Assembly (NCBI GenBank): GCA_945898055.1
Contig: CAMDGV010000051.1
Location: forward strand, 1 to 32,713
Source: Akkermansia muciniphila
Lineage (GTDB): Bacteria; Verrucomicrobiota; Verrucomicrobiia; Limisphaerales; UBA9464
Direction of reading: 5' to 3'
Length of the DNA stretch: 32,713 nucleotides
Shown here: piece by piece, positions 8,936 through 32,713 of the stretch
Position numbering within the stretch: position 1 is the stretch's first letter
How the letters are laid out: every line of letters starts with the position of its first letter
The notes under the pieces: generated by a model
The model's database searches: none
Seen by the model: the letters and a program-made list of their open reading frames with translations, nothing else
What the model was told of the DNA's origin: nothing
Program-made: the position numbers and the translations under genes

Positions 8936-10969
8936 TTAGGCTGAGGCATCAGCAAGAGCCTTGAATGCTTCGAGTGGCAAAGTGAACTCAGTGGCGAGGT
9001 TGGGTTCGGAGCGAACTGACACCTTAGATCCGTGATTATTGGCGATTTCTTGGACAATTGCGAGGCCTAGGCCGGTACCGGCAATGACTTGGCCGACGCG
9101 TTCGAAGCGGTAGAAACGATCAAAAATTCGTTCAAGATGCTCAGCGGGAATACCGGGGCCATTATCACAGACCGAGAGAATCCATCGGCTACCCTCGCGA
9201 ACGATGCGGATCTCAATCGCACCCCCGTCCTGTGTGAATTTGCAGGCATTGCCGACAAGGTTTTCTACCGCTGACCTGAGTTGGTTTAAATCGCCTCGGA
9301 CCAGGACTTGTTCATCGGGAAAAAAACAGGTCAGAGATTGTTTGTGGAGGAGGGATTGAGGAGAAAAGTCTCGATGAGCAGCCGAGCATATTTCTTTGAG
9401 ATCCACAGAAATTTTGGGAAATAAAGCGGGGTTGGACCTAAGACGGGAGAACTGGAGAATATCAGTAATCAGGGTCATCAGACGCGCGGTTTGGTTACAG
9501 GCAATTCCGAGGAATTTGGAGCGGGTTTCTGCGGGCATAGAACTATCCAAATGGAGGATGTCGAGGAAGCCCTTAATGGAGGTGAGAGGGGTGCGGAGTT
9601 CGTGCGAGACTGAGGCGACAAAGTCACTTTTCATTCGTTCTAATTCCCGAACTTGCGAGACGTCGCGCATGGCGATCACCATCCCCATAACCTTCAAACC
9701 CGAGAGGAGTGGTGAGGCGACCAGAGTCACAGGAATTAGACCGATCAATGGGTTGTCAAGCTGACGCGGAGTATCGGTGCTATGCGGATTACCGATAAAA
9801 ATGCCCGATTTGAGAATCTCCAAAAGAAGTTCGGTAGGGTCACTTAAGCTATCTTTAAAGCGAAGGATGGAGCGGATATTATGTCCTAGCACTTTTTCGG
9901 ATTGGAGGCCCACTAGGCGGCAGCCTTCAACATTTATTACTTCAATTTTACCCTCACGATCGGTGGTGATAACCCCGTCGAAGATGCTCGCCAGTGTCGC
10001 TCGTAGGTTTTCCGACTGAGTTTCGAGAGCCGCCTCAGTTCGTCTGCGTTCCTTTACCTCGTTGTGGAGGCGGATATTTGTCTCAGAAAGTTCGCGGGTG
10101 GTTTGATCACGACTGGCAGAGAGCGCTGATAACCAGATGGAGGCAATTCCTGCGATTCCTGCGAAGGCCCAATAGCGGTTATAGGAGTCGAGTAATTCGG
10201 CGTTACCGAAGGGGCCTCTTTTTTGGACAGTACCGAGGGCGGATATGAGAAGGATCGCTCCATTGGCGAGGGTGACCGATTGAGATCCGAGACGCAGAGT
10301 AGCCCAAGCGATGAAAAGGAAGGGCAAATATTCCAAGCGATAACTCGTCAAGACTGAATTAGTGCTCAGAAAGAGCAGGCCCATGCAGACGATGAGCAAA
10401 AGAAAAAAGAGGCTACGTTCGAGGGAGAGAGAGAGGTTTGTTTCGAAGTGTTCCCGAGGGGGATGAATGAGAATGGGAGTCAGAGCAAGAACCGCCACCA
10501 TATCACCGGCCCACCACATCCACCACTCCCGAAGAAAGTGGGTGGTCGAAGAGGCTGTGGCAGCGCAACCGATGAGCGCGCTTATATTTACGGAGACAGC
10601 AAGGACAAGAATGAGGGGGAAAACGTCGCGCGGTTCGAGGAGCCGGCCGGGTAGCTTGAGCCATTTTCGGATCCAAATGCTGCTGACAGTCACTTCAACG
10701 GCATTACCAACGGTGGCTCCAATAATAAGTTCCCAAGAACTGCCGTACATCATGTAGACCAGCATATGCCCGAGGATAATGCCCGGTACGACGATGGGGC
10801 CTCGAAGTAGTCCAAGGCCAAGAGTGATGCCTGAGGGTAGCCAAATATCTGGGACTAGGTGACCGCCCTGAATCATAGCGTGAGACAAGCGTGCCAGCAC
10901 AAACTGGAGAATCGCGATTCCCAGCCAAAGTGCCCACGGCCAATTCAGGACTGATTTAAGTATTCGCAA
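8936..10969 (-). CDS. Membrane sensor histidine kinase: MASE1, PAS, HisKA, HATPase
   Basis: A 677-residue inner-membrane kinase. Residues 1-290 are hydrophobic with several membrane segments and the MASE1-type signature WLPSGITLGLGLLRG. After a short coiled linker (about 290-320) comes a PAS domain (about 318-440, GVITTDREGKIEVINVEGC), then HisKA with the phosphorylated His456 in VSHELRTPLTSIKG, and the HATPase domain with N box ENLVGNACKF, G1 DNGPGI, F box FDRFYRF and G2 GTGLGLAI. All residues for autokinase activity appear present. No response regulator or receiver domain is found nearby, so this is an orphan kinase; MASE1 sensors have unknown ligands. It is divergent from the nucleotidyltransferase gene. 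Confidence 0.9.
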   Translation of the reverse strand: MRILKSVLNWPWALWLGIAILQFVLARLSHAMIQGGHLVPDIWLPSGITLGLGLLRGPIVVPGIILGHMLVYMMYGSSWELIIGATVGNAVEVTVSSIWIRKWLKLPGRLLEPRDVFPLILVLAVSVNISALIGCAATASSTTHFLREWWMWWAGDMVAVLALTPILIHPPREHFETNLSLSLERSLFFLLLIVCMGLLFLSTNSVLTSYRLEYLPFLFIAWATLRLGSQSVTLANGAILLISALGTVQKRGPFGNAELLDSYNRYWAFAGIAGIASIWLSALSASRDQTTRELSETNIRLHNEVKERRRTEAALETQSENLRATLASIFDGVITTDREGKIEVINVEGCRLVGLQSEKVLGHNIRSILRFKDSLSDPTELLLEILKSGIFIGNPHSTDTPRQLDNPLIGLIPVTLVASPLLSGLKVMGMVIAMRDVSQVRELERMKSDFVASVSHELRTPLTSIKGFLDILHLDSSMPAETRSKFLGIACNQTARLMTLITDILQFSRLRSNPALFPKISVDLKEICSAAHRDFSPQSLLHKQSLTCFFPDEQVLVRGDLNQLRSAVENLVGNACKFTQDGGAIEIRIVREGSRWILSVCDNGPGIPAEHLERIFDRFYRFERVGQVIAGTGLGLAIVQEIANNHGSKVSVRSEPNLATEFTLPLEAFKALADASA

Positions 10970-16496: not shown

Positions 16497-17255
16497 TCAT
16501 TGCGGATTGAAGGAAGCGGTATTGGTCCGCCAACGGTTGGAGGTGGCCCAAAGATTAATTGGGGCCAGACTTTTTCCATAGCGAAGGTACCGAACACTGC
16601 TGTCGACAAATGCGTAATTCGACCCCTTTCCTTTGGTGCTACCTGACCGCCCATGTCGTCCATGCTCCAATTCTTCAATATCGTCACCCAAAGCGCTAGC
16701 GAGGAGGTCCATGTGGAAGTGGCCGTGCGCTGGTGCATCGGAACGTTTCTCGCCAAAGATAATGGTTTCGGAAGGTTCGATGATGCCAGCATCGGGAACA
16801 CAATTGGTGACCGTGTGACTGAGGTAGTTTTTGAAGTCTTCAGGGGTCGAAATACTCTCAAACCAATCGTTCCAACCGTTCATAATATAACTGCGCGGAG
16901 CGTTGTCGGCGAGGTGGGTGGGATCGGGTGATCCAAAGGTGTGCGGCGGTTTTGGTCCATCACTGGGGCAGCGAAGAATTTTAACATCGACATAGCCGGG
17001 TTGCATCAGCGTCGGCCAAGCGGGTCGATAGGTGCGTGGAACCATTAGCCCAGCGAAATCAACTCGGTAGGTCGCATGCGCCAGTCCCATTTGACGGAGG
17101 TTGTTGACACAAGAAATTCGTTGGGCCCCACCTTTAGCACTGCCCAAAGAGGGAAGAAGCATTCCAGCGAGAATGGCGATAATGGCAATAACCACTAAAA
17201 GCTCGATCAAAGTGAACGCTTGAACCGTCGAGGTCGTTGATTTCTTCACGGACAT
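16497..17255 (-). CDS. Prepilin-type (type II pseudopilin-like) exported protein
   Basis: A 252-residue protein with a prepilin peptidase leader and N-terminal methylation motif, [18 protein letters not shown], starting at residue 14, then [10 protein letters not shown] and the conserved CVNNLRQMG. The C-terminal part contains [16 protein letters not shown], a variant of the F-x-DGSV element of the DUF1559-like heads. Such paralogues are very numerous in Verrucomicrobiota and Planctomycetes; no secretion or pilus genes lie nearby, so its partner machine is unknown. The first ATG at 17255 leaves a short Lys-containing leader, which suits prepilin peptidase. The 206 bases between argB and its stop hold no recognised feature. 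Confidence 0.85.
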
Positions 17256-17353
17256 TTTTTCCCCGACTCAATCAATGTGAAGAAGCTTCAAAAAAAGTTC
17301 GAAGAGGGTGGCTTCATTTCGCGTCAGGAGAATTTCTGTCTTGGCCTTGTTTC

Positions 17354-19186
17354 ATGCATCCTCTTCCCAATTTAATACGATCAATCGCACTCGTTTTATG
17401 GTTCGTTGGGGTCGTGCGTGCGGAGTCGATCCCGCATTGGGCCTTTCAACCGCCGGTTTCGCAACGGGTGCCTGTGGTCAGCAAACCCCATGGGATTCGG
17501 ACCCCAGTCGATGCGTTTATCGGCGATCGATTGGTTAAAGAAGGCATTAAACCGTCCGGGCCAGCGGATCGAGTGACTTTGTACCGCCGATTAGCTCTGG
17601 ATTTGACGGGTCTGCCGCCACCACCTGAAGAGGTCGATGCCTTTGTTGGAGACCGAACTGAGGGGGCTTATGAGCGTCAAGTGGAGCGATTGCTGAATTC
17701 GCCTCGATTTGGGGAGAGGTGGGCGAGGCATTGGCTCGATTTGGCTCGGTATGCGGATAGCAGCGGCTATCAGGTGGACCGCGAGCGACCTTGGGCTTGG
17801 GTTTATCGGGATTGGGTGGTTCGTTCGTTCAATCGAGATCAAGGTTTTGATCGATTCAGCCTAGAGCAACTTGCGGGAGATTTGCTCTATGAGGAGGAGC
17901 GGACGCCGAGGGGCGATCCCGATTTATTGATTGCAGGGGGATTTCATCGGATGGCTTTAAGCAACCATGAGGACGGCATTGATGCCGCTGAATTTGCGGT
18001 TCGGACCCAAGTAGACCGAGTCGCTACCACTGGAACAGCTTGGATGGGATTAACCTTGGGGTGCGCTGAGTGTCACTCGCATAAATACGACCCGATCAGC
18101 CAACGGGAGTTTTATCAATTTTTCGCCTTTTTTAACACCGCCGAAGAGGCGGACCCGACGGTGGCACCTGGGGTGACTGCGTACAGTTTTCGTCAACGGC
18201 GAGAGCCCTTAAAGACCTTTGTGCATGTTCGGGGTGATTTTCGGCGACACGGGGAGGAAGTTCGGCCTGGATTTTTGCTGGGAGTGACATCGATAAAGCA
18301 GGTGGTGGCGTCTGCCCCGACTCGTTTGGATCTAGCCCGTTGGATCGTATCGTCAGAAAATCCACTCACGGCTCGGGTGGCAGTGAATCAAATTTGGCTC
18401 CATTTGTTTGGGCGAGGATTGGTGTCGACAACCGAGGACTTCGGGATTCGCGGGGAGGCTCCGTCGCACCCAGAGTTACTCGATTGGTTGGCAACTGAGT
18501 TTATTCGGTCTGGTTGGAGCCGTAAGCATCTTATCCGACTCATTGTCTGTTCTGCCACTTATAAGCAATCGTCAGAGGTACGATTGGAATTAAAGGAAAG
18601 AGATCCGGAGAATCGCTTATTGGCGCGGCAAAATCGGATTCGGTTGGAAGGAGAGGTTTTGAGAGATAGTGCATTGGCGGCAGGCGGAGTGCTGAATTTG
18701 GAACTCGGTGGACCCGCGTTTCGCGCAGAAATGCCCGAGGATGTGAAGTGGTTGGGAACAGCAGGCGCTTGGAGTTGGAAGGATGATACTGGGCCGATGT
18801 TGAATCGTCGGAGTCTTTATATGTATTCACAGCGGACCGTGCCGCATCCCTTACTGCCGGTTTTTGATCAAGCAAATCCGAACGAAGCCTGCACGCGGCG
18901 GGAACGTTCGAATACGCCACTTCAGGCCCTGACGCTTCTCAATAATAGCACCTTTGTTGACTCCGCACGGTCGCTGGCTCAGCTATTGGCCAGCCAGAAC
19001 CCTGCAAATCCAAAGGGGCAGATTCGAGAGGCATTTCGACGTTGTCTCGGGCGGAATCCGGGTCGTAGTGAAGTCATTCGTTTGGACGCGCTTTTCAAGC
19101 AGGTGCAGCGAATTGATCCTTCCCAAGCCTTGTTCATGGTGGTGCAGATAGTGATGAACTTGGATGAATTTCAAAATCGCGACTGA
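17354..19186 (+). CDS. DUF1549/DUF1553 (PSCyt2-PSD1) exported protein
   Basis: A 610-residue protein from ATG 17354, where a signal peptide starts (MHPLPNLIRSIALVLWFVGV, then VRAES); the longer frame from 17237 would overlap the pseudopilin start and lacks a signal. Residues about 40-260 are the DUF1549 (PSCyt2) domain with DRVTLYRRLALDLTGLPP and RWARHWLDLARYADSSGYQ; residues about 330-580 are DUF1553 (PSD1) with NPLTARVAVNQIWLHLFGRG and NTPLQALTLLNNSTFV. GCAECHSHKYDP carries a CxxCH sequence that could bind heme c. Family proteins often have an N-terminal cytochrome domain and a long middle section; both are missing here, so this is a compact version. It is followed after 30 bases by the DUF1501 gene, the usual partner. 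Biochemical function unknown. Confidence 0.87.
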   Translation: MHPLPNLIRSIALVLWFVGVVRAESIPHWAFQPPVSQRVPVVSKPHGIRTPVDAFIGDRLVKEGIKPSGPADRVTLYRRLALDLTGLPPPPEEVDAFVGDRTEGAYERQVERLLNSPRFGERWARHWLDLARYADSSGYQVDRERPWAWVYRDWVVRSFNRDQGFDRFSLEQLAGDLLYEEERTPRGDPDLLIAGGFHRMALSNHEDGIDAAEFAVRTQVDRVATTGTAWMGLTLGCAECHSHKYDPISQREFYQFFAFFNTAEEADPTVAPGVTAYSFRQRREPLKTFVHVRGDFRRHGEEVRPGFLLGVTSIKQVVASAPTRLDLARWIVSSENPLTARVAVNQIWLHLFGRGLVSTTEDFGIRGEAPSHPELLDWLATEFIRSGWSRKHLIRLIVCSATYKQSSEVRLELKERDPENRLLARQNRIRLEGEVLRDSALAAGGVLNLELGGPAFRAEMPEDVKWLGTAGAWSWKDDTGPMLNRRSLYMYSQRTVPHPLLPVFDQANPNEACTRRERSNTPLQALTLLNNSTFVDSARSLAQLLASQNPANPKGQIREAFRRCLGRNPGRSEVIRLDALFKQVQRIDPSQALFMVVQIVMNLDEFQNRD

Positions 19187-21181: not shown

Positions 21182-24100
21182 ATGTATCTCAAAAACCTGA
21201 CAGCGTTAGGGTTCAAGAGTTTTGCCGACAAGACGGTCCTAAACTTCCAGGAGGGAGTGACGGCGATTGTGGGGCCAAACGGGTGTGGAAAATCGAATGT
21301 TTCTGACGCGATTCGCTGGGTTTTAGGTGAGCAATCAGCCAAGGCACTACGAGGTGGTGAGATGTCGGATGTCATTTTTAATGGCACAGATACTCGAAAG
21401 CCGATGGGGATGGCTGAGGTATCGTTGACCTTAGGTGGGGTGGATGGAGATCCGTTACGTGCAGCAGGTATTGCAGTCGAGTTTAACGAAGTCACTTTGA
21501 CCCGCCGAGTCTTTCGAGATGGAGGCAGCGAATACTTTCTGAACAAAACAGCCTGTCGCCTTCGTGACATCCAACAGTTTTTTGCTGGGACCGGTATGGG
21601 CAAGGCCAGTTACTCGATTATGGCCCAGGGCAACATCACTCAAATTCTTTCGAGTAAACCAGACGATCGCCGCTTGGTTTTTGAGGAGGCGGCGGGCATT
21701 ACTCGGTTTAAGCAGCAGAAGAGGGAATCCCTAAGGAAATTGGAGGCAACCGAGCAGAACCTCTTGCGGGTCGATGATTTGGTCCGTGAGGTAAAACGCC
21801 AGATTGGATCTCTCCAAAGACAGGCAGGCAAGGCCCGGCGCTTCAAATCGATTCAGGTGGAGTTGCAGCATCTAGAAACCCAACTAGCTCGTCATCAATT
21901 TGATGTTCTCACCCTGGAAATTGCGCAGAAAAAGGAGGCGTCAGAACGTTCGACCTTCGAGTTGGAAGTGGGACAAGAGACGGTGACCCGTTTAGAAGCG
22001 GAAGTTCTTAAGTTACGCCATCAGTTGTCGGAGTTGGATCAGAGTATTTCTCTTCAACAACAGGGAGCCTTGGAGTTGAAAGCGGAGAGTGAGCGTCAGG
22101 AGAATACCATCGGTTTTAATGAGTTGCGAATGGCCGAATTGTCGGAACAAAACTCGAAAGCCGCTCAAGATATCACCCAATACAGTGAACGCCGCTCCAT
22201 TGCTGAGGTTGAATTGGAGATGGCTGTTGAACGAGCGGATATTTCTCGCGTTGCAGTGGAAGCATTACGGGCTGATTTGACGGTCAAGCGCGACTTCCTT
22301 TCGCGGGTGGAACAGGATCTTTCGGGAAAACAAGTGGAGCTCAGTCAAGCCCAGAGCGGCGCCCTTGCTGCGACCCAAGGATTGGGACGTATTCGTAATG
22401 ATATTAACCAACTCGCGGTTCAACTCGAGGGCAACGTAGTGCGTTTGGAGCGGTTGAGTTCGGAAAAAATTCAGTTCGAAGAAGAGAACCTGCGATTGGA
22501 GGCTCGAACGGTGGAATTTACCCTCCAAGTGGAGGAAGAAAAGGAGCGCGTTCAGACCTCGCGCTTGACCCTAGAGGAGCGGCGATATCAGTTGGGTGAA
22601 GTTCGCGAAGATATTCAAAGAGCAAGCCACTCTTTGGACAGCTTGTTACAGCAGCAAGCCGGTAAGATATCTCGGTTCAATTTGCTAGAGCAACTGGACA
22701 CCCAGCATGAGGGGTTTGCGGTTGGGGCTTTAGCCGCTCTGAAACAGAGTCGTCATGTTTTGGGATCCTTGGCCGACCGCATTCGGGTCTCCGACCCCTA
22801 TGTGACCGCTGTGGAGGCTGCCCTCGGTGCGAATCTGCAATTGGTGCTCACCAGCGAAGCGAGCGAAGCTTCCGAAATTTTGGCTGACTTGGCGGCCAAT
22901 AAAAAAGGTCGGGCCAGTATTGCTGCTCTTTCGTTGGCACCGGGACTTTTCGAGGAAGGCACTTCCCTCCCCTTGGGAACGATTGCGGCTTTGTCGGTTG
23001 TGACGGTCGAAGAATCGATTCGTGCGTTGGTCACGGCCCTACTCGGCAGAACTTTGATCGTCTCGGATATGGCCGCTGCCGCCAAGGCTTTCCAAAATGG
23101 CGGGGCGGGATTTGATTATGTGACCTCGACCGGTGACCTGCTTGATCGCCGAGGCATTTTCACCGGTGGAGCCCAAGCTTCCTCGGGGCAGGCTGCGGCC
23201 AGTATTTTAGGTCGTAAAAATCTCATTGCCGAAATTCAGTTGGAATTATTGAACCTCCAAGCTGCTGCGACCGAGGCCGCTGGTTTGAAGACTTCCCTCC
23301 AGGCCGAACAAGCGACTCTTCAGTCGAGCTTGGAACAGGTTCGAATGGAGTTGTCGCAGCAAGAGGTGGCGGTGGCGACTCGACAGGGGGAATTTAATGC
23401 CGTGCGATCAGCTCGCCAAGCCTTGGAATTGCGTTTGGATCAAACCGACCGTGAACTGGGTCTCTTGGGAGCGCAGGAAGTAACTCACCTTCAGAAACGT
23501 GAGTCTTTGGCTGCTCAAGTCGCAGAATTCGAACTACGCGAGCACCATGCTACCGGTAAGGTGACTGAGTTAAGTGTGGCCGTTGAGGACCTGCGCTGTC
23601 GTCGAGATACAGCCAATCAGGCTTACAATGACTCCAAGGTTGCCTTTGCCACTGAGGAACAGTTACTGAGCTCACATCTCAAGCAGCGAGCGCCATTGGA
23701 GTTGCGGATCAACGAGTTGCTTTCGGCAGTGGCGCGCCTTGAGAACGATCGAGGACAGTTCAATGATCGACGTGCCAACTTTGAAGCGGGGATCGGCCAA
23801 TGCCGACACAAGGTGGAACTGTTGAGGGTGGAACGGTCCACTCTAGCAAATCAGATAGCTCAGTTGGGTAACGACCGGAAGTTTGTCGAAGGCGAGATTC
23901 AAAGTCGTGAAGACCAACTCAGGGAGCGTCGTTTGAAGGTAACTTCTTTGCACAATCTAAGAGCTCAGTTGGAGGTCGAACTCGCGCAGAGAGTCATTAC
24001 TTTACAAAATCTAGGTGAACGTATTCAGATCAAATATCAGGTGGCCTTGGAGACTATTCGAGGCGAGGGGCTCCGCATTACCTCTGCGGATGACGGGCAA

Positions 24101-24904
24101 CCCAAGATTGAGACCGTGACAGATGAAGAAATGGTCGCCTCGAATTTAGTCACAGATTGGGAAATTGTGGCGGCGCAGGTGATTAGTCTGCAGAAAAAAA
24201 TCGATGATATCGGACCGGTGAATCTGGTGGCGATTGCCGACTATGAGGAGGCGGAACAGCGCTACACTTTTCTTCAGGCTCAGTGTGATGATTTAGTCAA
24301 AGCCAAGGCCGAACTCGTTGAGGTGATTAACCGGATCAATACCGAGACCAAGACCTTGTTCATCGATACTTTTGAAAAGATCCGTTTGAACTTTCAGTCG
24401 ATGTTCACTGAAATGTTTGGAGGTGGAAAAGCGGACTTGAAGTTAACCGAGTCAGAAGATGTTTTGGAGGCCGGTATCGAAATTGTGGCTAAGCCGCCAG
24501 GGAAGCAATTACAGACCATTTCCCTGCTGTCAGGCGGTGAACAAACCATGACTGCGGTCGCGTTGCTCTTCGCCATTTATCAAGTGAAACCATCTCCATT
24601 CTGCGTGCTAGACGAGTTGGATGCGCCTTTGGATGAGTCAAATATTCTGCGTTTTACTACGGTCTTGAAACGCTTTTTGGACCATAGCCAATTCGTGGTG
24701 ATCACCCATAATAAGCGGACGATTGGCATGGCCGATATTCTCTATGGTGTGACTATGCAGGAGCGGGGTGTCAGTAAGATCGTGAGTGTTCGGTTTAACC
24801 GAGACGAGGGATCCCCTGAACGCGTAACTGAAACGGCTAATCCCCCCCTCGCAGTACCGCATTCGGAATTACCCTTGGAGGGAGATCAGGTGCTGGCACG
24901 GTAA
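21182..24904 (+). CDS. smc: Chromosome segregation ATPase SMC
   Basis: A 1240-residue condensin subunit. The N-terminal ATPase half has Walker A GPNGCGKSN at residues 31-39 and FNGTDTRKPMGMAEV; two long coiled-coil arms (about 165-500 and 665-1000, rich in Glu, Gln, Arg, Leu) flank a hinge (about 505-660, with HEGFAVGALAALKQ and DYVTSTGDLLDRRGIFTGG). The C-terminal half carries signature LSGGEQTMTAVALLFA and Walker B FCVLDELDAPLDESN. Length and order are standard for bacterial SMC, which dimerises at the hinge and works with ScpA/ScpB in chromosome organisation; those genes are not here. A GGGGA precedes the ATG. Upstream, 20953-21181 contains a 12 bp palindrome ACCTCATGAGGT (21030-21041) but no other signal. 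Confidence 0.94.
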   Translation: MYLKNLTALGFKSFADKTVLNFQEGVTAIVGPNGCGKSNVSDAIRWVLGEQSAKALRGGEMSDVIFNGTDTRKPMGMAEVSLTLGGVDGDPLRAAGIAVEFNEVTLTRRVFRDGGSEYFLNKTACRLRDIQQFFAGTGMGKASYSIMAQGNITQILSSKPDDRRLVFEEAAGITRFKQQKRESLRKLEATEQNLLRVDDLVREVKRQIGSLQRQAGKARRFKSIQVELQHLETQLARHQFDVLTLEIAQKKEASERSTFELEVGQETVTRLEAEVLKLRHQLSELDQSISLQQQGALELKAESERQENTIGFNELRMAELSEQNSKAAQDITQYSERRSIAEVELEMAVERADISRVAVEALRADLTVKRDFLSRVEQDLSGKQVELSQAQSGALAATQGLGRIRNDINQLAVQLEGNVVRLERLSSEKIQFEEENLRLEARTVEFTLQVEEEKERVQTSRLTLEERRYQLGEVREDIQRASHSLDSLLQQQAGKISRFNLLEQLDTQHEGFAVGALAALKQSRHVLGSLADRIRVSDPYVTAVEAALGANLQLVLTSEASEASEILADLAANKKGRASIAALSLAPGLFEEGTSLPLGTIAALSVVTVEESIRALVTALLGRTLIVSDMAAAAKAFQNGGAGFDYVTSTGDLLDRRGIFTGGAQASSGQAAASILGRKNLIAEIQLELLNLQAAATEAAGLKTSLQAEQATLQSSLEQVRMELSQQEVAVATRQGEFNAVRSARQALELRLDQTDRELGLLGAQEVTHLQKRESLAAQVAEFELREHHATGKVTELSVAVEDLRCRRDTANQAYNDSKVAFATEEQLLSSHLKQRAPLELRINELLSAVARLENDRGQFNDRRANFEAGIGQCRHKVELLRVERSTLANQIAQLGNDRKFVEGEIQSREDQLRERRLKVTSLHNLRAQLEVELAQRVITLQNLGERIQIKYQVALETIRGEGLRITSADDGQPKIETVTDEEMVASNLVTDWEIVAAQVISLQKKIDDIGPVNLVAIADYEEAEQRYTFLQAQCDDLVKAKAELVEVINRINTETKTLFIDTFEKIRLNFQSMFTEMFGGGKADLKLTESEDVLEAGIEIVAKPPGKQLQTISLLSGGEQTMTAVALLFAIYQVKPSPFCVLDELDAPLDESNILRFTTVLKRFLDHSQFVVITHNKRTIGMADILYGVTMQERGVSKIVSVRFNRDEGSPERVTETANPPLAVPHSELPLEGDQVLAR

Positions 24905-25204: not shown

Positions 25205-28411
<3,207 letters not shown>

Positions 28412-28417
28412 GGCGCG

Positions 28418-29686
28418 TCACGTCTTCTTCCCAGACTTTGGAGCGACGGTAACTGGTGGACTATTCGCCGGCGGTTGGCCTGATGCGTCCACCGTGACTG
28501 GCTGCCCATTCTGCAAATTTCCGGGGTTTAAGACCACTACATCGCCGGGCTTGAGCCCACCGAGCACTTCGATGAAATCCCCCGCGCGTCGGCCGATGGA
28601 GATGTTCTTCTCCGTCGCCCTGCCGTCCTTCACGAGGAAGATTTTTTCCATGCCGGCGAAAGTGATGAGCGCGTCCTTGTGGACGGTCGTAGTCGGATCC
28701 AACTCGGCGAGCACGATGTCCGCGCGAGCAAAGGTGCCGGGCCGCAGCAGGCCGGTCGGGTTCGGGATGTCCGCCTCCACGATGAGCATGCGGCTCACGT
28801 CCGTGATGGCGGGGCTGAGGCGCGAGAGGGTGCCGGCGTATTTATTCGTGTCTCCCTCGATGGCGAGGCGGATTTTCTGCCCAAGACGCACGCCGGTTGC
28901 GTTGCGCTCGGGGACTTCGACGCGCAGCCGCAGCGGGTCCACCTTCACGAGCGTGGCCACGGGCGCAGCGGTGTTGAGGAATTCGCCCGGGCTGGCCTTG
29001 CGCTCCTGCACGATGCCGTCGAAGGGCGCAACAATTTTCGTGTCTGCCAGCTGTTGACGAGCAATCTCCACATCCACGCGACGCTGCTGAAGCACACCCT
29101 GCCGTTGGCGAACGTCTTCGAGGGCTTCGAGATGGCGATTAAAAGCGATTTCGTAGTTCGCTTCGGCGATTTCCAAATCCGCCTGCGAGCTGATGCCGCG
29201 CTTGGCCAGTTCACGCGTGCGGTCGCGCTGCTTTTGCGATTCGAGCAACGACGCCTTCGCCTGCCGCACTGTGCTGGTTTCCTCCCCCTTCATCGTGTCG
29301 TCGGCACCGACCAGCAGAAGCCCAAGCCGCGCGCGGGCCTGCGCGAGCAGCGCCTCGGCAGATCGGAGCTTCAACTCGTAATCTACCGACTCGATTTGAG
29401 CGACGAGTTCGCCGCGCTTCACGCGCGTGCCGAGATCCACGATGAGGCTCTGGAGCCGACCGCTGACTTTCACGCTCAAGGTCGCCTGATCGATCGCCGC
29501 GAGTGCGCCGATGACGGACACGGCACGCTCCATCGGGCGCGACTCCGCCGGAGCTGCCTGCACGGTGCGCGAGGGCAGGTCGGGCGCGGCCTTGCCGTCC
29601 TTCTTTCCGCCCTTGGATGCTTCAGGCGGATTGCAGCCAGCGAGCAGTGCGGCGGTCAGCAGTGGAATGAATATTTGCTTGGTCAG
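28418..29686 (-). CDS. RND efflux membrane-fusion lipoprotein (AcrA/HlyD type)
   Basis: Periplasmic adaptor of the downstream permease. From residue about 40 the conserved parts appear in order: ALAAIDQATLSVKVSGRLQS (barrel-sandwich half), a coiled-coil hairpin (LLAQARARLGLLL to RQGVLQQRRVDVEIARQQL), KIVAPFDGIVQERKASPGEF (second lipoyl half), and the beta-barrel and proximal domains (LRVEVPERNATGVRLGQKIR). A GTG at 29563 would start the protein late and without any signal. Reading further upstream in the same frame gives LTKQIFIPLLTAALLAGC, a perfect lipobox with Cys coded at 29633-29635, so the true protein begins there. That stretch has no ATG, GTG or TTG before an in-frame TAA at 29693-29695; I set the start at CTG 29684-29686. 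Confidence 0.8.
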   Translation of the reverse strand: MTKQIFIPLLTAALLAGCNPPEASKGGKKDGKAAPDLPSRTVQAAPAESRPMERAVSVIGALAAIDQATLSVKVSGRLQSLIVDLGTRVKRGELVAQIESVDYELKLRSAEALLAQARARLGLLLVGADDTMKGEETSTVRQAKASLLESQKQRDRTRELAKRGISSQADLEIAEANYEIAFNRHLEALEDVRQRQGVLQQRRVDVEIARQQLADTKIVAPFDGIVQERKASPGEFLNTAAPVATLVKVDPLRLRVEVPERNATGVRLGQKIRLAIEGDTNKYAGTLSRLSPAITDVSRMLIVEADIPNPTGLLRPGTFARADIVLAELDPTTTVHKDALITFAGMEKIFLVKDGRATEKNISIGRRAGDFIEVLGGLKPGDVVVLNPGNLQNGQPVTVDASGQPPANSPPVTVAPKSGKKT

Positions 29687-29967: not shown

Positions 29968-29983
29968 GTAACTACTCAGGTAG
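29968..29983 (+). repeat. Left terminal inverted repeat of the IS66-like element
   Basis: GTAACTACTCAGGTAG, identical to the reverse complement of 32513-32528. One mismatch then a further match follows inward. About 77 bases of AT-rich sequence separate it from the first gene; they should hold the promoter, but I cannot define -35 and -10 boxes with confidence. Confidence 0.9.
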
Positions 29984-30060
29984 CCCTCGGTAACATTTTT
30001 CTAAAAAACCGGATATTCTTTTAGCTGGACTCACTTTGATAAAGGCTCTATTTTGCATCT

Positions 30061-30939
30061 ATGGCAAGCGTCATGGTCATGCAAGGGCGGGAACTCAACA
30101 CTTCGGATATCGAAGGGATTTGCGGATTCCTCCAAGCGCATCCCGAGTGGAACCGCACACGGTTGAGTCGCGAGTTGTGTGAGCTCTGGGATTGGCGCAA
30201 CGCAGCGGGTCGGCTCAAGGACATGGCCGCGCGCACGCTGCTGCTCAAGCTCGAGCGGGCCGGCTGCATCGCGTTGCCCGCTCGGCAGAGGCCTTCGGCC
30301 AATGCGCGTCGCAATCTCCACATTGCGCCTGTCCTTGCCCCGGAGGAACCCATCAGCAGTCCGCTGCGCGAACTCCAACCCCTCGCCGTGAGCATCGCCA
30401 AACCCGGCACGCCCGATGCGCGGCTCGTCCAAGGTCTGCTGGCCCATGAGCACTATCTCGGAGCGCGCAACAGCGTCGGGGAAAACCTCCGCTACCTTGT
30501 GCGCGACCGGTTCGGCCGTCCAGTCGCCTGCGCGCTCTTCGGATCGGCGGCGTGGAAGTGCGCCGACCGCGATGCCTTCATTGGGTGGGATCGCACCATA
30601 CGCGAACGCAACCTCCAACACCTTACCAACAACACCCGCTTCCTGATTCCCCGCTGGGTGCGGGTCCCTCACCTCGCCAGCCATGTGCTCGGGCTCATCG
30701 CACGGCGCATCCGTGCCGACTGGCAGGAAAAATACGGCCACCCCGTGCATGCGCTGGAAACTTTCGTCGAACGTTCGCGCTTCCAAGGAACATGCTACCG
30801 TGCGGCCAACTGGCAACGGCTCGGCAAAACCTGCGGGCGCACCCGCAACGACCGAAACAACACGATCCGCGTGGGGATCAAGGATGTGTATCTGCATGCG
30901 CTCACTCCCGACTTCCGCAAGGAGCTCTGCGCGCCATGA
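30061..30939 (+). CDS. DUF4338 protein (Druantia DruA-like)
   Basis: A 292-residue protein. The N-terminal 80 residues look helical (IEGICGFLQAHPEWNRTRLS, LCELWDWRN, LKDMAARTLLLKLERAG), resembling a small DNA-binding region. The rest is the DUF4338 domain: LLAHEHYLGARNSVGENLRY, ACALFGSAAWKCADRDAFIG, LTNNTRFLIPRWVRVPHLAS and RFQGTCYRAANWQRLGKT. DUF4338 defines DruA of the Druantia phage-defence systems, though most members lie outside such loci; druB to druE are not here. Its stop overlaps the transposase start (ATGA), and both lie between the inverted repeats, so it belongs to the transposon. A role in transposition, in target choice, or as a carried defence gene is open. Alternative in-frame ATGs at 30073 and 30079 are possible starts. 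Confidence 0.8.
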   Translation: MASVMVMQGRELNTSDIEGICGFLQAHPEWNRTRLSRELCELWDWRNAAGRLKDMAARTLLLKLERAGCIALPARQRPSANARRNLHIAPVLAPEEPISSPLRELQPLAVSIAKPGTPDARLVQGLLAHEHYLGARNSVGENLRYLVRDRFGRPVACALFGSAAWKCADRDAFIGWDRTIRERNLQHLTNNTRFLIPRWVRVPHLASHVLGLIARRIRADWQEKYGHPVHALETFVERSRFQGTCYRAANWQRLGKTCGRTRNDRNNTIRVGIKDVYLHALTPDFRKELCAP

Positions 30940-32441
30940 CACGCGAGGAAGCCCAAGCCATTTACCGCGCCGGTGAGGAGACCGTCGTGCGCGTTCTTGT
31001 GGATCTTTCCGTTCGAGTCGATCAACTCACAGCCGATTTCGTCCTCCTCAAAGCCGAAAACCTCGCCCTGCGCGTCGAGTGCGGGACATTGCGCGAGCGC
31101 GTGCACACCCTCGAAGGACAAGTCGCCAAAGACTCGAGCAACAGCCACAAGCCACCCTCCTCCGACGGACTCGCCAAACCCAGTCCCAAAAGCCTGCGCG
31201 CGCCAAGCCAGCGTCCCAGCGGAGGTCAGCTCGGGCATGCCGGCCACACGCTCCGCATGGTTGAAACCCCCGACCGCATCGTCACCCACCGCGTCCAGCG
31301 ATGCTCGGCCTGCGGCCAATCCCTCGACACCGTCCAACCCGCCCGCGTCGAGCGCCGCCAAGTCCACGACCTCCCCGAGCCCAAGCTCGAAATCACCGAG
31401 CACCAAGCCGAAATCAAGACCTGCTCATGCGGTTGCGTCAACCGCGCCACCTTCCCGCCCGAAGCCCCCGCCCCCGTGCAATACGGCCCCCGCCTCAAAG
31501 GCACGGCCGTGTATTTGAGCCAATACCAGCTCCTGCCATTCGAGCGAACCAGCGAAATCCTGCGCGACCTCCACGGCTGCGAATCCTTCAGCCAAGGCAC
31601 GCTGGCCAACTTCCATGTCGACTGCGCGGCCCGGCTCGAGCCCACCGAAGCCGCCATCCTCAAGCAAGTCGCCGCTTCGCCCGTTGTCGGCTTCGACGAA
31701 ACCGGCGTCCGAGCCTCAGGCTCCCTCCACTGGCTCCACACCGTCTGCACCAAGGCGCTCACTTGGTATTACGCCCATAAAAAACGAGGTACCCAAGCCA
31801 TGGACGCCGCCGGCATCCTGCCAACCTTCCAAGGCTGCGCCATCCACGACTTTTGGAAACCTTACTTCAGCTACGACTGCCAGCACGCCCTCTGCAACGC
31901 CCACCTGCTGCGCGAACTCGTCTTCCTCCACGAGCAGGAAAACCAAACATGGGCCAAAGCCATGATCGACCACCTGCTCGCCATCAAGAACGCCGTCGCC
32001 ACAGCCCGCAGCGCCAATTTTCAAGCCATTCCCGACACCGAGAAAGTCCTCATCCATGCCAGATACAATCGCATCGTCAACGAAGGCTACACGGAGAACC
32101 CCCGCGCCGAGCCTCCAAGCGGACTCAAACGCCGGGGCCGTCGCAAACAAAGCAAAGCCCTCAATCTCCTCGACCGCTTCCGCGAGCATTCCCAGAGCAT
32201 CCTCGCGTTCCTCTACGACTTCGCCGTTCCCTTCGACAACAACCAATCCGAACGCGACCTGCGCATGATGAAGGTCCGCCAGAAAATCTCAGGCACCTTC
32301 CGCAGCCTCGACGCCCTCAAGAACTTCTGCCGCATCCGGGGCTATGTCTCCACAGCCCGCAAAAACAGCCTCACCGCCCTCGACGCCCTACGCCGCATCT
32401 TCCTCGGCGACCCGTTCCTCCCAACCCCCAACTCCTCCTGA
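30936..32441 (+). CDS. IS66 family transposase (TnpC type)
   Basis: A 501-residue DDE transposase. The N-terminal coiled coil (LKAENLALRVECGTLRERVH) leads into KDSSNSHKPPSSDG, the IS66 hallmark, then a zinc-finger-like segment with CSACG and CSCGC. The catalytic domain has VVGFDETGVR (first Asp), CAIHDFWKPYFSYDCQHALC with NAHLLREL (second Asp region) and FDNNQSERDLRMMKVRQKIS (Glu). All parts are in one frame and the length is normal. A longer frame from 30552 exists but it lies inside the DUF4338 gene; the start at 30936 gives the family N-terminus and the ATGA overlap. Confidence 0.92.
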   Translation: MTREEAQAIYRAGEETVVRVLVDLSVRVDQLTADFVLLKAENLALRVECGTLRERVHTLEGQVAKDSSNSHKPPSSDGLAKPSPKSLRAPSQRPSGGQLGHAGHTLRMVETPDRIVTHRVQRCSACGQSLDTVQPARVERRQVHDLPEPKLEITEHQAEIKTCSCGCVNRATFPPEAPAPVQYGPRLKGTAVYLSQYQLLPFERTSEILRDLHGCESFSQGTLANFHVDCAARLEPTEAAILKQVAASPVVGFDETGVRASGSLHWLHTVCTKALTWYYAHKKRGTQAMDAAGILPTFQGCAIHDFWKPYFSYDCQHALCNAHLLRELVFLHEQENQTWAKAMIDHLLAIKNAVATARSANFQAIPDTEKVLIHARYNRIVNEGYTENPRAEPPSGLKRRGRRKQSKALNLLDRFREHSQSILAFLYDFAVPFDNNQSERDLRMMKVRQKISGTFRSLDALKNFCRIRGYVSTARKNSLTALDALRRIFLGDPFLPTPNSS

Positions 32442-32512
32442 ACCTCTCGGGCACCTAAACAAAAAACAGCCACTGCCCGCTCAAAAATCCCCGAGCCATC
32501 ACCCGCTCGCGC

Positions 32513-32528
32513 CTACCTGAGTAGTTAC
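32513..32528 (-). repeat. Right terminal inverted repeat of the IS66-like element
   Basis: CTACCTGAGTAGTTAC on the plus strand, the exact complement of the left end. It follows the transposase stop codon by 71 bases; that spacer has no gene. Confidence 0.9.
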
Positions 32529-32647
32529 GGCATTTCAAAAAAAAATCGCCGATCCTGATCATCCACAAATATCGCCGCACGACGATTCCCTCGCGCCATC
32601 ACATGGTAAAATGCCCCCTCAAATTCCAATCGAATGCTTCGTGCCAT
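32529..32647 (-). pseudogene. REP-associated tyrosine transposase (Y1/IS200-like), cut by the IS66-like element
   Basis: From ATG 32647 on the minus strand the translation MARSIRLEFEGAFYHVMARG, then NRRAAIFVDDQDRRFFFEM, is the highly conserved start of RAYT-type transposases (MARPLRIEYPGAxYHVxxRGN, IFxDDxDRxxFL). After 39 codons it is broken by the right inverted repeat of the IS66-like element. The catalytic HUH and Tyr parts, expected further downstream, are not found on the other side of the element. Sequence 32648-32713 upstream shows no gene. Confidence 0.8.
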
Positions 32648-32713
32648 GCCGTTTGCTTAATCACTCCAAACAAAATCCCTCAACACAAAAATGAAAGGAA
32701 ATGCACACTGACC

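Follow-up and report, generated by a model that had tools for sequence, protein, structure and literature searches.

Near the right end of the window, by which we mean the whole stretch of 32,713 nucleotides analyzed here (contig CAMDGV010000051.1 of an Akkermansia muciniphila assembly), lies a two-gene IS66-type element of 2,561 base pairs (bp; positions 29968-32528) whose DUF4338 gene, the subject of this work, precedes and overlaps the transposase gene tnpC. The element is bounded by perfect inverted repeats (16/16 bp) that begin with GTAA and are listed with the other features in Table 1. When the window was scanned for this 16-mer with up to three mismatches, only the two terminal copies were found, the chance expectation being 0.03 matches, and none of 100 shuffled windows contained two matches. 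The product of the upstream gene is a member of PF14236 (113 bits for a gathering cut-off of 27), and that of the downstream gene was recognized as TnpC by PF03050 (E value of 3.3e-47) and by NF033517 (305 bits; cut-off of 180). The two genes occupy the element fully, so that no space is left for tnpA and tnpB, which are absent; other dru genes were not found in the element either, only tnpC following the DUF4338 gene before the inverted repeat closes the unit. These observations confirmed the anatomy reported in a preliminary description of this DNA, i.e. perfect 16-bp repeats that enclose only DUF4338 and IS66 tnpC joined by an ATGA overlap. The lack of tnpA and tnpB, also pointed out there, stands as a fact but is not odd in itself, because although IS66 elements show repeats starting with GTAA and 8-bp target duplications and usually (not universally) carry the two helper genes, elements with tnpC alone, known as the ISBst12 type, exist. 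The window element resembles these tnpC-only elements in its TnpC with DDE_Tnp_IS66 and zf-IS66 domains, its GTAA repeats and the 8-bp duplications of three of its relatives, and differs from them in the added upstream DUF4338 gene that overlaps tnpC. The octamers beside the window element, TGAAAAAG on the left and GGCATTTC on the right, are mismatched, and therefore this copy is without an 8-bp target duplication.

Table 1. Features of the DUF4338-tnpC element and of the DUF4338 protein (positions refer to the window)
Feature	Position	Strand	Basis or remark
Left terminal inverted repeat, GTAACTACTCAGGTAG	29968..29983	+	Exact match to right repeat; similar repeats flank related elements
Right terminal inverted repeat	32513..32528	-	Exact match to left repeat
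DUF4338 (PF14236) gene, 292 amino acids	30061..30939	+	PF14236, E value of 1.6e-32
Domains of the DUF4338 protein: helical N-terminal domain, possibly winged helix (residues ~1-75); GNAT-fold Mom-like domain (residues ~104-290)			Model, structure search, weak N-terminal matches
Codons for H131-Y132 (Mom H48-Y49, invariant)	30451..30456	+	Alignment
Codons 237-255: E237, G243, Y246, A248, N250, G255 (Mom D139, G146, Y149, A151, N153, G158)	30769..30825	+	Alignment
ATGA overlap of DUF4338 stop and tnpC start	30936..30939	+	Reading frames
IS66-family transposase TnpC, 501 amino acids	30936..32441	+	Domains DDE_Tnp_IS66, zf-IS66, DUF6444

A scan of named genome contigs yielded 134 relatives of the DUF4338 protein, 80 of which were retained, and the resulting 81 loci (window included) were assigned to classes from profile searches that covered every reading frame out to about 600 bp. 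A DDE-type transposase was found beside or fused to DUF4338 in 66 of the 81 loci. The contig end is too close for a decision in nine loci, which leaves 66 positives among 72 assessable ones. TnpC of the IS66 family lies directly downstream in 41 loci, upstream in three and in a single open frame in one (L087), and the pairing noted in the preliminary description is thus not unique to its locus. Tn5-like transposases are fused to DUF4338 in eight loci and lie downstream in five, UPF0236 and ISAs1-type transposases lie downstream in four and two loci, respectively, and DDE_5 and DDE_Tnp_1 account for one locus each. Because the loci were picked by likeness to the window protein, the share of IS66 is inflated, but this selection does not explain the spread over at least five kinds of partner, namely IS66, Tn5-like, ISAs1-type, UPF0236 and DDE_5. 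For every kind there is one locus or more in which Pfam identifies the partner (L052, L057, L058, L086, L099, L103, L107); the DDE_Tnp_1 domain is common to several of the kinds, so that these, though distinct, are not all unrelated. Loci L055 and L056 were assigned for their resemblance to the L052 protein (UPF0236) and L105 by the Tn5-like profile, and Pfam gave no supporting match for the downstream pieces of these three loci that were scanned.

Past mobility of the two-gene arrangement is recorded in three relatives, L038, L046 and L075, in which perfect 8-bp target duplications (TCCTGGAA, AAATCAAT and TCTCGCAA, respectively) enclose both genes. Over the first 14 bp, their inverted repeats agree at 14, 12 and 14 positions, and their lengths of 2,606, 2,430 and 2,381 bp leave no space for tnpA or tnpB. 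The matching repeats and perfect duplications indicate that DUF4338, which lies inside the repeats in all three cases, is part of the mobile unit. Together with the recurrence of the pair they also rule out a chance adjacency of DUF4338 and tnpC. The target duplication scan reported none at the other IS66-partner loci, many of which end at contig edges. A possible tnpC start codon at the -1 overlap position was found in 24 of the 41 loci with TnpC downstream, the window included. In L087 (542-2791) TnpC comes first in the open frame that it shares with DUF4338, and the order is reversed in the same way in L091, L092 and L094.

The association was also observed in a less biased sample of 145 genomes across the phylum of the window (its own genome included), 16 of which contain DUF4338 and 37 an IS66 transposase. 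This sample provided eleven loci with a DUF4338-ISAs1-type transposase fusion (L113-L118, L124, L125, L129, L131, L132), one fusion with DDE_5 (L109) and one with a Tn5-like transposase (L111). Three of the ISAs1 fusions (L117, L118 and L125) are flanked by 10-bp target duplications. In one genome, four copies are identical for about 1.9 kb and lie in different contexts; three of them were inspected for duplications and had none. With the window protein as query, no DUF4338 match was obtained in the phage collection and two records were obtained in the plasmid collection; a plasmid homologue such as WP_216644545.1 on pTs417 is annotated as 'ISAs1 family transposase'. These annotated ISAs1 transposases likewise associate DUF4338 with what is annotated as a DDE transposase, and they differ from the window element in that both form one protein and in that the DUF4338 match of the examined ISAs1 fusions begins only beyond the helical N-terminal domain. 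The in-frame fusions with Tn5-like, ISAs1-type and DDE_5 transposases argue for an action of DUF4338 in the transposition complex rather than as free cargo. Hence, the earlier proposal that DUF4338 proteins may serve transposition is backed by their recurrence in transposons, by their position inside repeats with target duplications and by their fusion to other transposases.

A second line of evidence concerns the protein itself. The Pfam Mom family matched a DDE_5 fusion at an E value of 8e-6, and for this reason two alignments were built. The first one, A1, contains 61 DUF4338 proteins, i.e. that of the window and 60 of the 80 retained relatives, leaving out those that match in several pieces, are not near full length or contain a stop (L095); the second one, A2, contains phage Mu Mom and 13 relatives taken from 280 phage records. 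Comparison of A1 with A2 by hhalign gave a probability of 96.1% and an E value of 3.6e-9 over 165 columns, covering residues 27-221 of the 231 of Mom. The Pfam Mom model matched 30 of the 61 A1 proteins at E values of 0.1 or below (best, 9.5e-7), the generic GNAT model matching one of the 61, and one relative, L056, exceeded the Pfam Mom cut-off (29.1 bits for a threshold of 27.1) with L109 falling just below it (26.1 bits). A hidden Markov model (HMM) of Mom of our own was run on 10,795 open fragments and an equal number of reversed decoys, and at E values up to 1 it matched 96 of the 161 DUF4338 fragments, a single other fragment and no decoy. Among these DUF4338 fragments, 62 matched at 0.1 or below and 13 at 1e-3 or below, the best value being 9.6e-7; 11 of the 19 whole proteins also present in the test set were matched, and all 11 are transposase fusions.

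The homology is also seen in conserved residues of Mom. Nine Mom positions conserved in at least 92% of A2 (H48, Y49, R101, D139, G146, Y149, A151, N153 and G158) have collinear counterparts in DUF4338 (H131, Y132, R193, E/D237, G243, Y246, A248, N250 and G255). Conservation in A1 is complete (61/61) for H131, R193, G243, A248 and G255, and S207, Y246 and N250 are each kept in 60 proteins and Y132 in 59; position 237 holds D in 34 proteins, E in 26, including that of the window, and Q in one. The usual acetyl-CoA loop motif of GNAT proteins, [QR]xxGx[GA], is absent from all 61 A1 proteins (residues 188-228) and from all 14 Moms. The serine S124 in the title of the Mom structure 8bv8 corresponds to S114 in our numbering, in which position 124 is not serine. 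Searches for solved relatives with the sequence profile of A1 gave chance-level matches only. An AlphaFold2 model of the window protein was obtained with a mean predicted local distance difference test (pLDDT) value of 90.1, and when 997 chains were realigned to it with VIA-align, Mom (8bv8) was the best match (Z score of 14.8, root-mean-square deviation of 4.2, 171 residues), followed by GNAT proteins at 13.0. Taken together, these results provide good support for the homology of the transposon-linked DUF4338 family to phage Mu Mom (PF25680), a GNAT-fold DNA adenine-modifying enzyme whose mark is described in the relevant passage of PMC8281217 as methylcarbamoyl adenine.

Nevertheless, several observations weigh against this homology or against its extension to a function in transposition. 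On its own, the window protein matched neither Pfam Mom nor our Mom HMM at E values up to 1, pairwise BLAST of this protein and Mom gave nothing significant, and when ten relatives were scanned singly only one passed the Pfam Mom cut-off. Foldseek used alone gives other acetyltransferases as its top matches, and Mom is missing from the 50 matches listed. At position 237 the window copy has E, whereas all 14 Moms have D. The transposon forms have no match for G71 and E98 of Mom, both invariant in A2, or for H173, which is invariant in those rows that extend to it; of the 24 Mom columns conserved at 85% or more, eight have the identical residue in 70% or more of these forms (four are carried by the defence forms described below). 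Moreover, in six of the 81 loci no transposase was found beside DUF4338 in spite of sufficient room. Finally, the DUF4338 proteins of L028, L029 and L036 are 65-76% identical while their TnpC proteins are at 26%, and L028 and L036 carry another inverted repeat. As DUF4338 stays similar when the partner and the repeats change, a strict recognition of one inverted repeat by DUF4338, or its strict coevolution with a single repeat, is unlikely, and the similarity suggests a general step rather than the recognition of one end sequence. Because it has no Pfam Mom match, though L056 passes the cut-off and L109 nearly does, we regard the DUF4338 protein of the window as a relative of Mom and not as a member of that family. 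Both proteins share the fold, the collinear conserved residues and the missing acetyl-CoA loop, and the window protein differs, in addition to the residues mentioned, in its extra N-terminal domain and in its location in a transposon.

This N-terminal domain (residues 1-75) is small and helical, is seen in the unfused proteins and was modeled with a pLDDT of 81.3; an alignment (A3) was made from 52 of the 61 A1 proteins. Compared alone with solved structures, it gave weak matches (best Z score of 4.8; Foldseek E values of 1 or above), which include winged-helix proteins (AsnC/Lrp, DeoR) as well as proteins that do not bind DNA. Since these matches are weak, we can only infer that the domain is possibly a winged helix and may bind DNA.

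PF14236 also includes DruA of Druantia type I (PADLOC model PDLC00002), and the preliminary description had accordingly called the window gene DruA-like. The PADLOC DruA model matched the window protein with an E value of only 0.0023 (15 bits); the DruA of L170, a near-complete protein of ~430 amino acids encoded in an operon with DruD and DruE, reached 651.7 bits. In 274 genomes of one class, this model found matches in 10 genomes, including five near-complete proteins, none of which was matched by Pfam Mom or by our Mom HMM. The other four of these five proteins (L171-L174, matched by PADLOC DruA1) are encoded in DUF4338-NurA-HerA operons instead of Druantia; these operons may represent a distinct defence system, which the DruA1 model would mislabel. 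A further match of the DruA model, at L175:182-3913, is a 1,244-amino-acid fusion of DUF4338 with a DndF/SspF-like ATPase, an architecture that appears in the passages on DUF4338 of PMC10853773. The six defence forms (L170-L175) have W-S opposite the H-Y pair and, in most cases, N opposite the D position, in an alignment that is uncertain there; the D and A-x-N positions of DruA are replaced or cannot be aligned, and the tyrosine of an SSxYN motif in the defence forms might match Y246. The DndF-fused domain, which according to the same passages of PMC10853773 belongs to phosphorothioate-related systems, shares the Pfam family with the window protein and differs from it in the ATPase fusion and, judging from L175, in the loss of the H-Y pair as in DruA. 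Because Druantia DruA and the DndF fusion lack the Mom-type signature kept by the transposon forms, the name DruA-like is misleading. It had further been suggested that Druantia recruited DUF4338 from mobile DNA. In a quick tree with Mom as outgroup, the six defence forms arose from within the transposon group on a very long stem branch (3.03), but this nesting was not upheld by the approximately unbiased (AU) test, in which constraining the 73 transposon forms together raised the likelihood by 18.6 (p-AU of 0.805). The suggestion is thus unsupported as stated, and we draw no conclusion on the direction between transposon and defence forms.

With respect to its function, the chances appear to us evenly balanced that DUF4338 is a DNA-directed transposition accessory whose Mom-related GNAT domain acts on the DNA of the element, most probably by modifying adenines. 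The upstream gene product would then combine an N-terminal helical, possibly winged-helix, domain with a GNAT-fold domain of Mom ancestry and an active-site-like residue pattern. Made together with the transposase, or in other elements fused to a DDE transposase, it may act on the transposon ends or the donor DNA, where the most likely activity would be the addition of a Mom-type group to adenines; such a mark could serve to time, regulate or target transposition, or protect the element against nucleases. Catalysis by the window copy itself is plausible but unproven. A wider proposal, which we make only tentatively, is that DUF4338 constitutes a widespread transposon-borne branch of Mom-like hypermodification enzymes, coupled or fused to at least five kinds of transposase so that transposition would use or follow a bulky adenine mark at the ends or on the donor DNA, and that DruA and the DndF-fused domain are relatives in which the active site was lost, maybe readers of such DNA.

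The main alternative to DNA modification is a role in binding only, in which the Mom-like fold would be kept for contacts with DNA and the protein would be a non-catalytic subunit of the transpososome that replaces TnpA and TnpB as a regulator or end-binding factor. The absence of tnpA and tnpB, the gene overlap and the in-frame transposase fusions all speak for such a subunit, as do the alternation of D and E at position 237 and a possibly DNA-binding N-terminal domain; nevertheless, a near-invariant residue set in 61 proteins from many phyla exceeds what binding should require, and we consider this explanation rather improbable, if still a serious one. The homology to Mom, which protects phage Mu DNA from many restriction enzymes (stated in the part of PMC6483171 dealing with Mom), would also fit an anti-restriction cargo that modifies element and host DNA against restriction, as Mom does for Mu, and takes no direct part in transposition. 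A cargo gene of this sort, however, would not be expected to be fused in frame with three kinds of transposase (Tn5-like, ISAs1-type and DDE_5) or to occupy the same place upstream of so many transposases, which makes this possibility unlikely.

Two further explanations deserve less weight than adenine modification, binding or cargo. An acetyltransferase acting on the transposase or on a host factor would agree with the GNAT fold, with the small-molecule and protein acetyltransferases that head the Foldseek matches and with PMC10853773, whose passage on DUF4338 calls it a GNAT acetyltransferase domain. Nonetheless, the acetyl-CoA loop motif is missing throughout A1 and, among solved structures, realignment places Mom nearest, and such an activity on proteins is therefore very unlikely. 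As to a stray defence gene that an insertion sequence picked up by chance, a reading for which the Pfam name of the family, DruA, might speak, we find it scarcely credible given the transposase beside or fused to DUF4338 in 66 of 81 loci, the lack of signature residues in the DruA-type proteins examined and the weak PADLOC score of the window protein; the recurrence of the gene within inverted repeats with target duplications in effect refutes it.

In a literature search by titles, abstract openings and term counts, DUF4338 or DruA was not joined with IS66 or Mom among the matches listed, and the passages on DUF4338 that were retrieved describe no transposon link; the name DUF4338 itself was found in three papers. 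There is a fair chance that the accessory gene exemplifies a way of using DNA modification not found described in the literature searched. For the defence component DruA/DUF4338, the only biochemical description found was that of a GNAT fold, in the passages of PMC10853773 on this domain, and the link with Mom supplies a concrete reaction to test. The pairing or fusion of a Mom-like protein with several transposases is likewise a testable lead on function, and DUF4338 can be divided into two branches, one with the Mom-type residue set (transposons) and one without it (Druantia, DndF fusions and HerA-NurA operons). Host Dam methylation is known to act on IS10 and IS50. Should the DUF4338 proteins of transposons modify DNA, insertion sequences would bring along a base-modification step of their own, an element-encoded counterpart of this effect of host Dam.

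The host genome (4.63 Mb in 136 contigs) contains, at the DNA level, one complete and four partial matches to the element, and profile searches revealed 10 DUF4338 and 12 IS66 stretches, those of the window included, several with internal stops. DUF4338 remnants, some of them with internal stops, lie beside IS66 pieces on contigs C38 and C13 and beside ISAs1-type pieces on contigs C11, C90 and C36, and no partner was found for those on C84 and C103. No junction-spanning match that would represent an empty site for the window insertion was detected in the 30 genomes of the relatives search, the own genome included. To the right of the element, positions 32565-32713, up to the end of the window, belong to a dispersed repeat, parts of which match nine more places in the host genome at 96-100%. 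To the left, at 25205-29563, two minus-strand genes look by eye like those of an RND efflux pump and its membrane fusion protein, and they are preceded by ordinary chromosomal neighbours coding for an SMC chromosome protein (21182-24904), a PSD1/PSCyt2 protein (17237-19186) and a MASE1 sensor histidine kinase (8936-10969).

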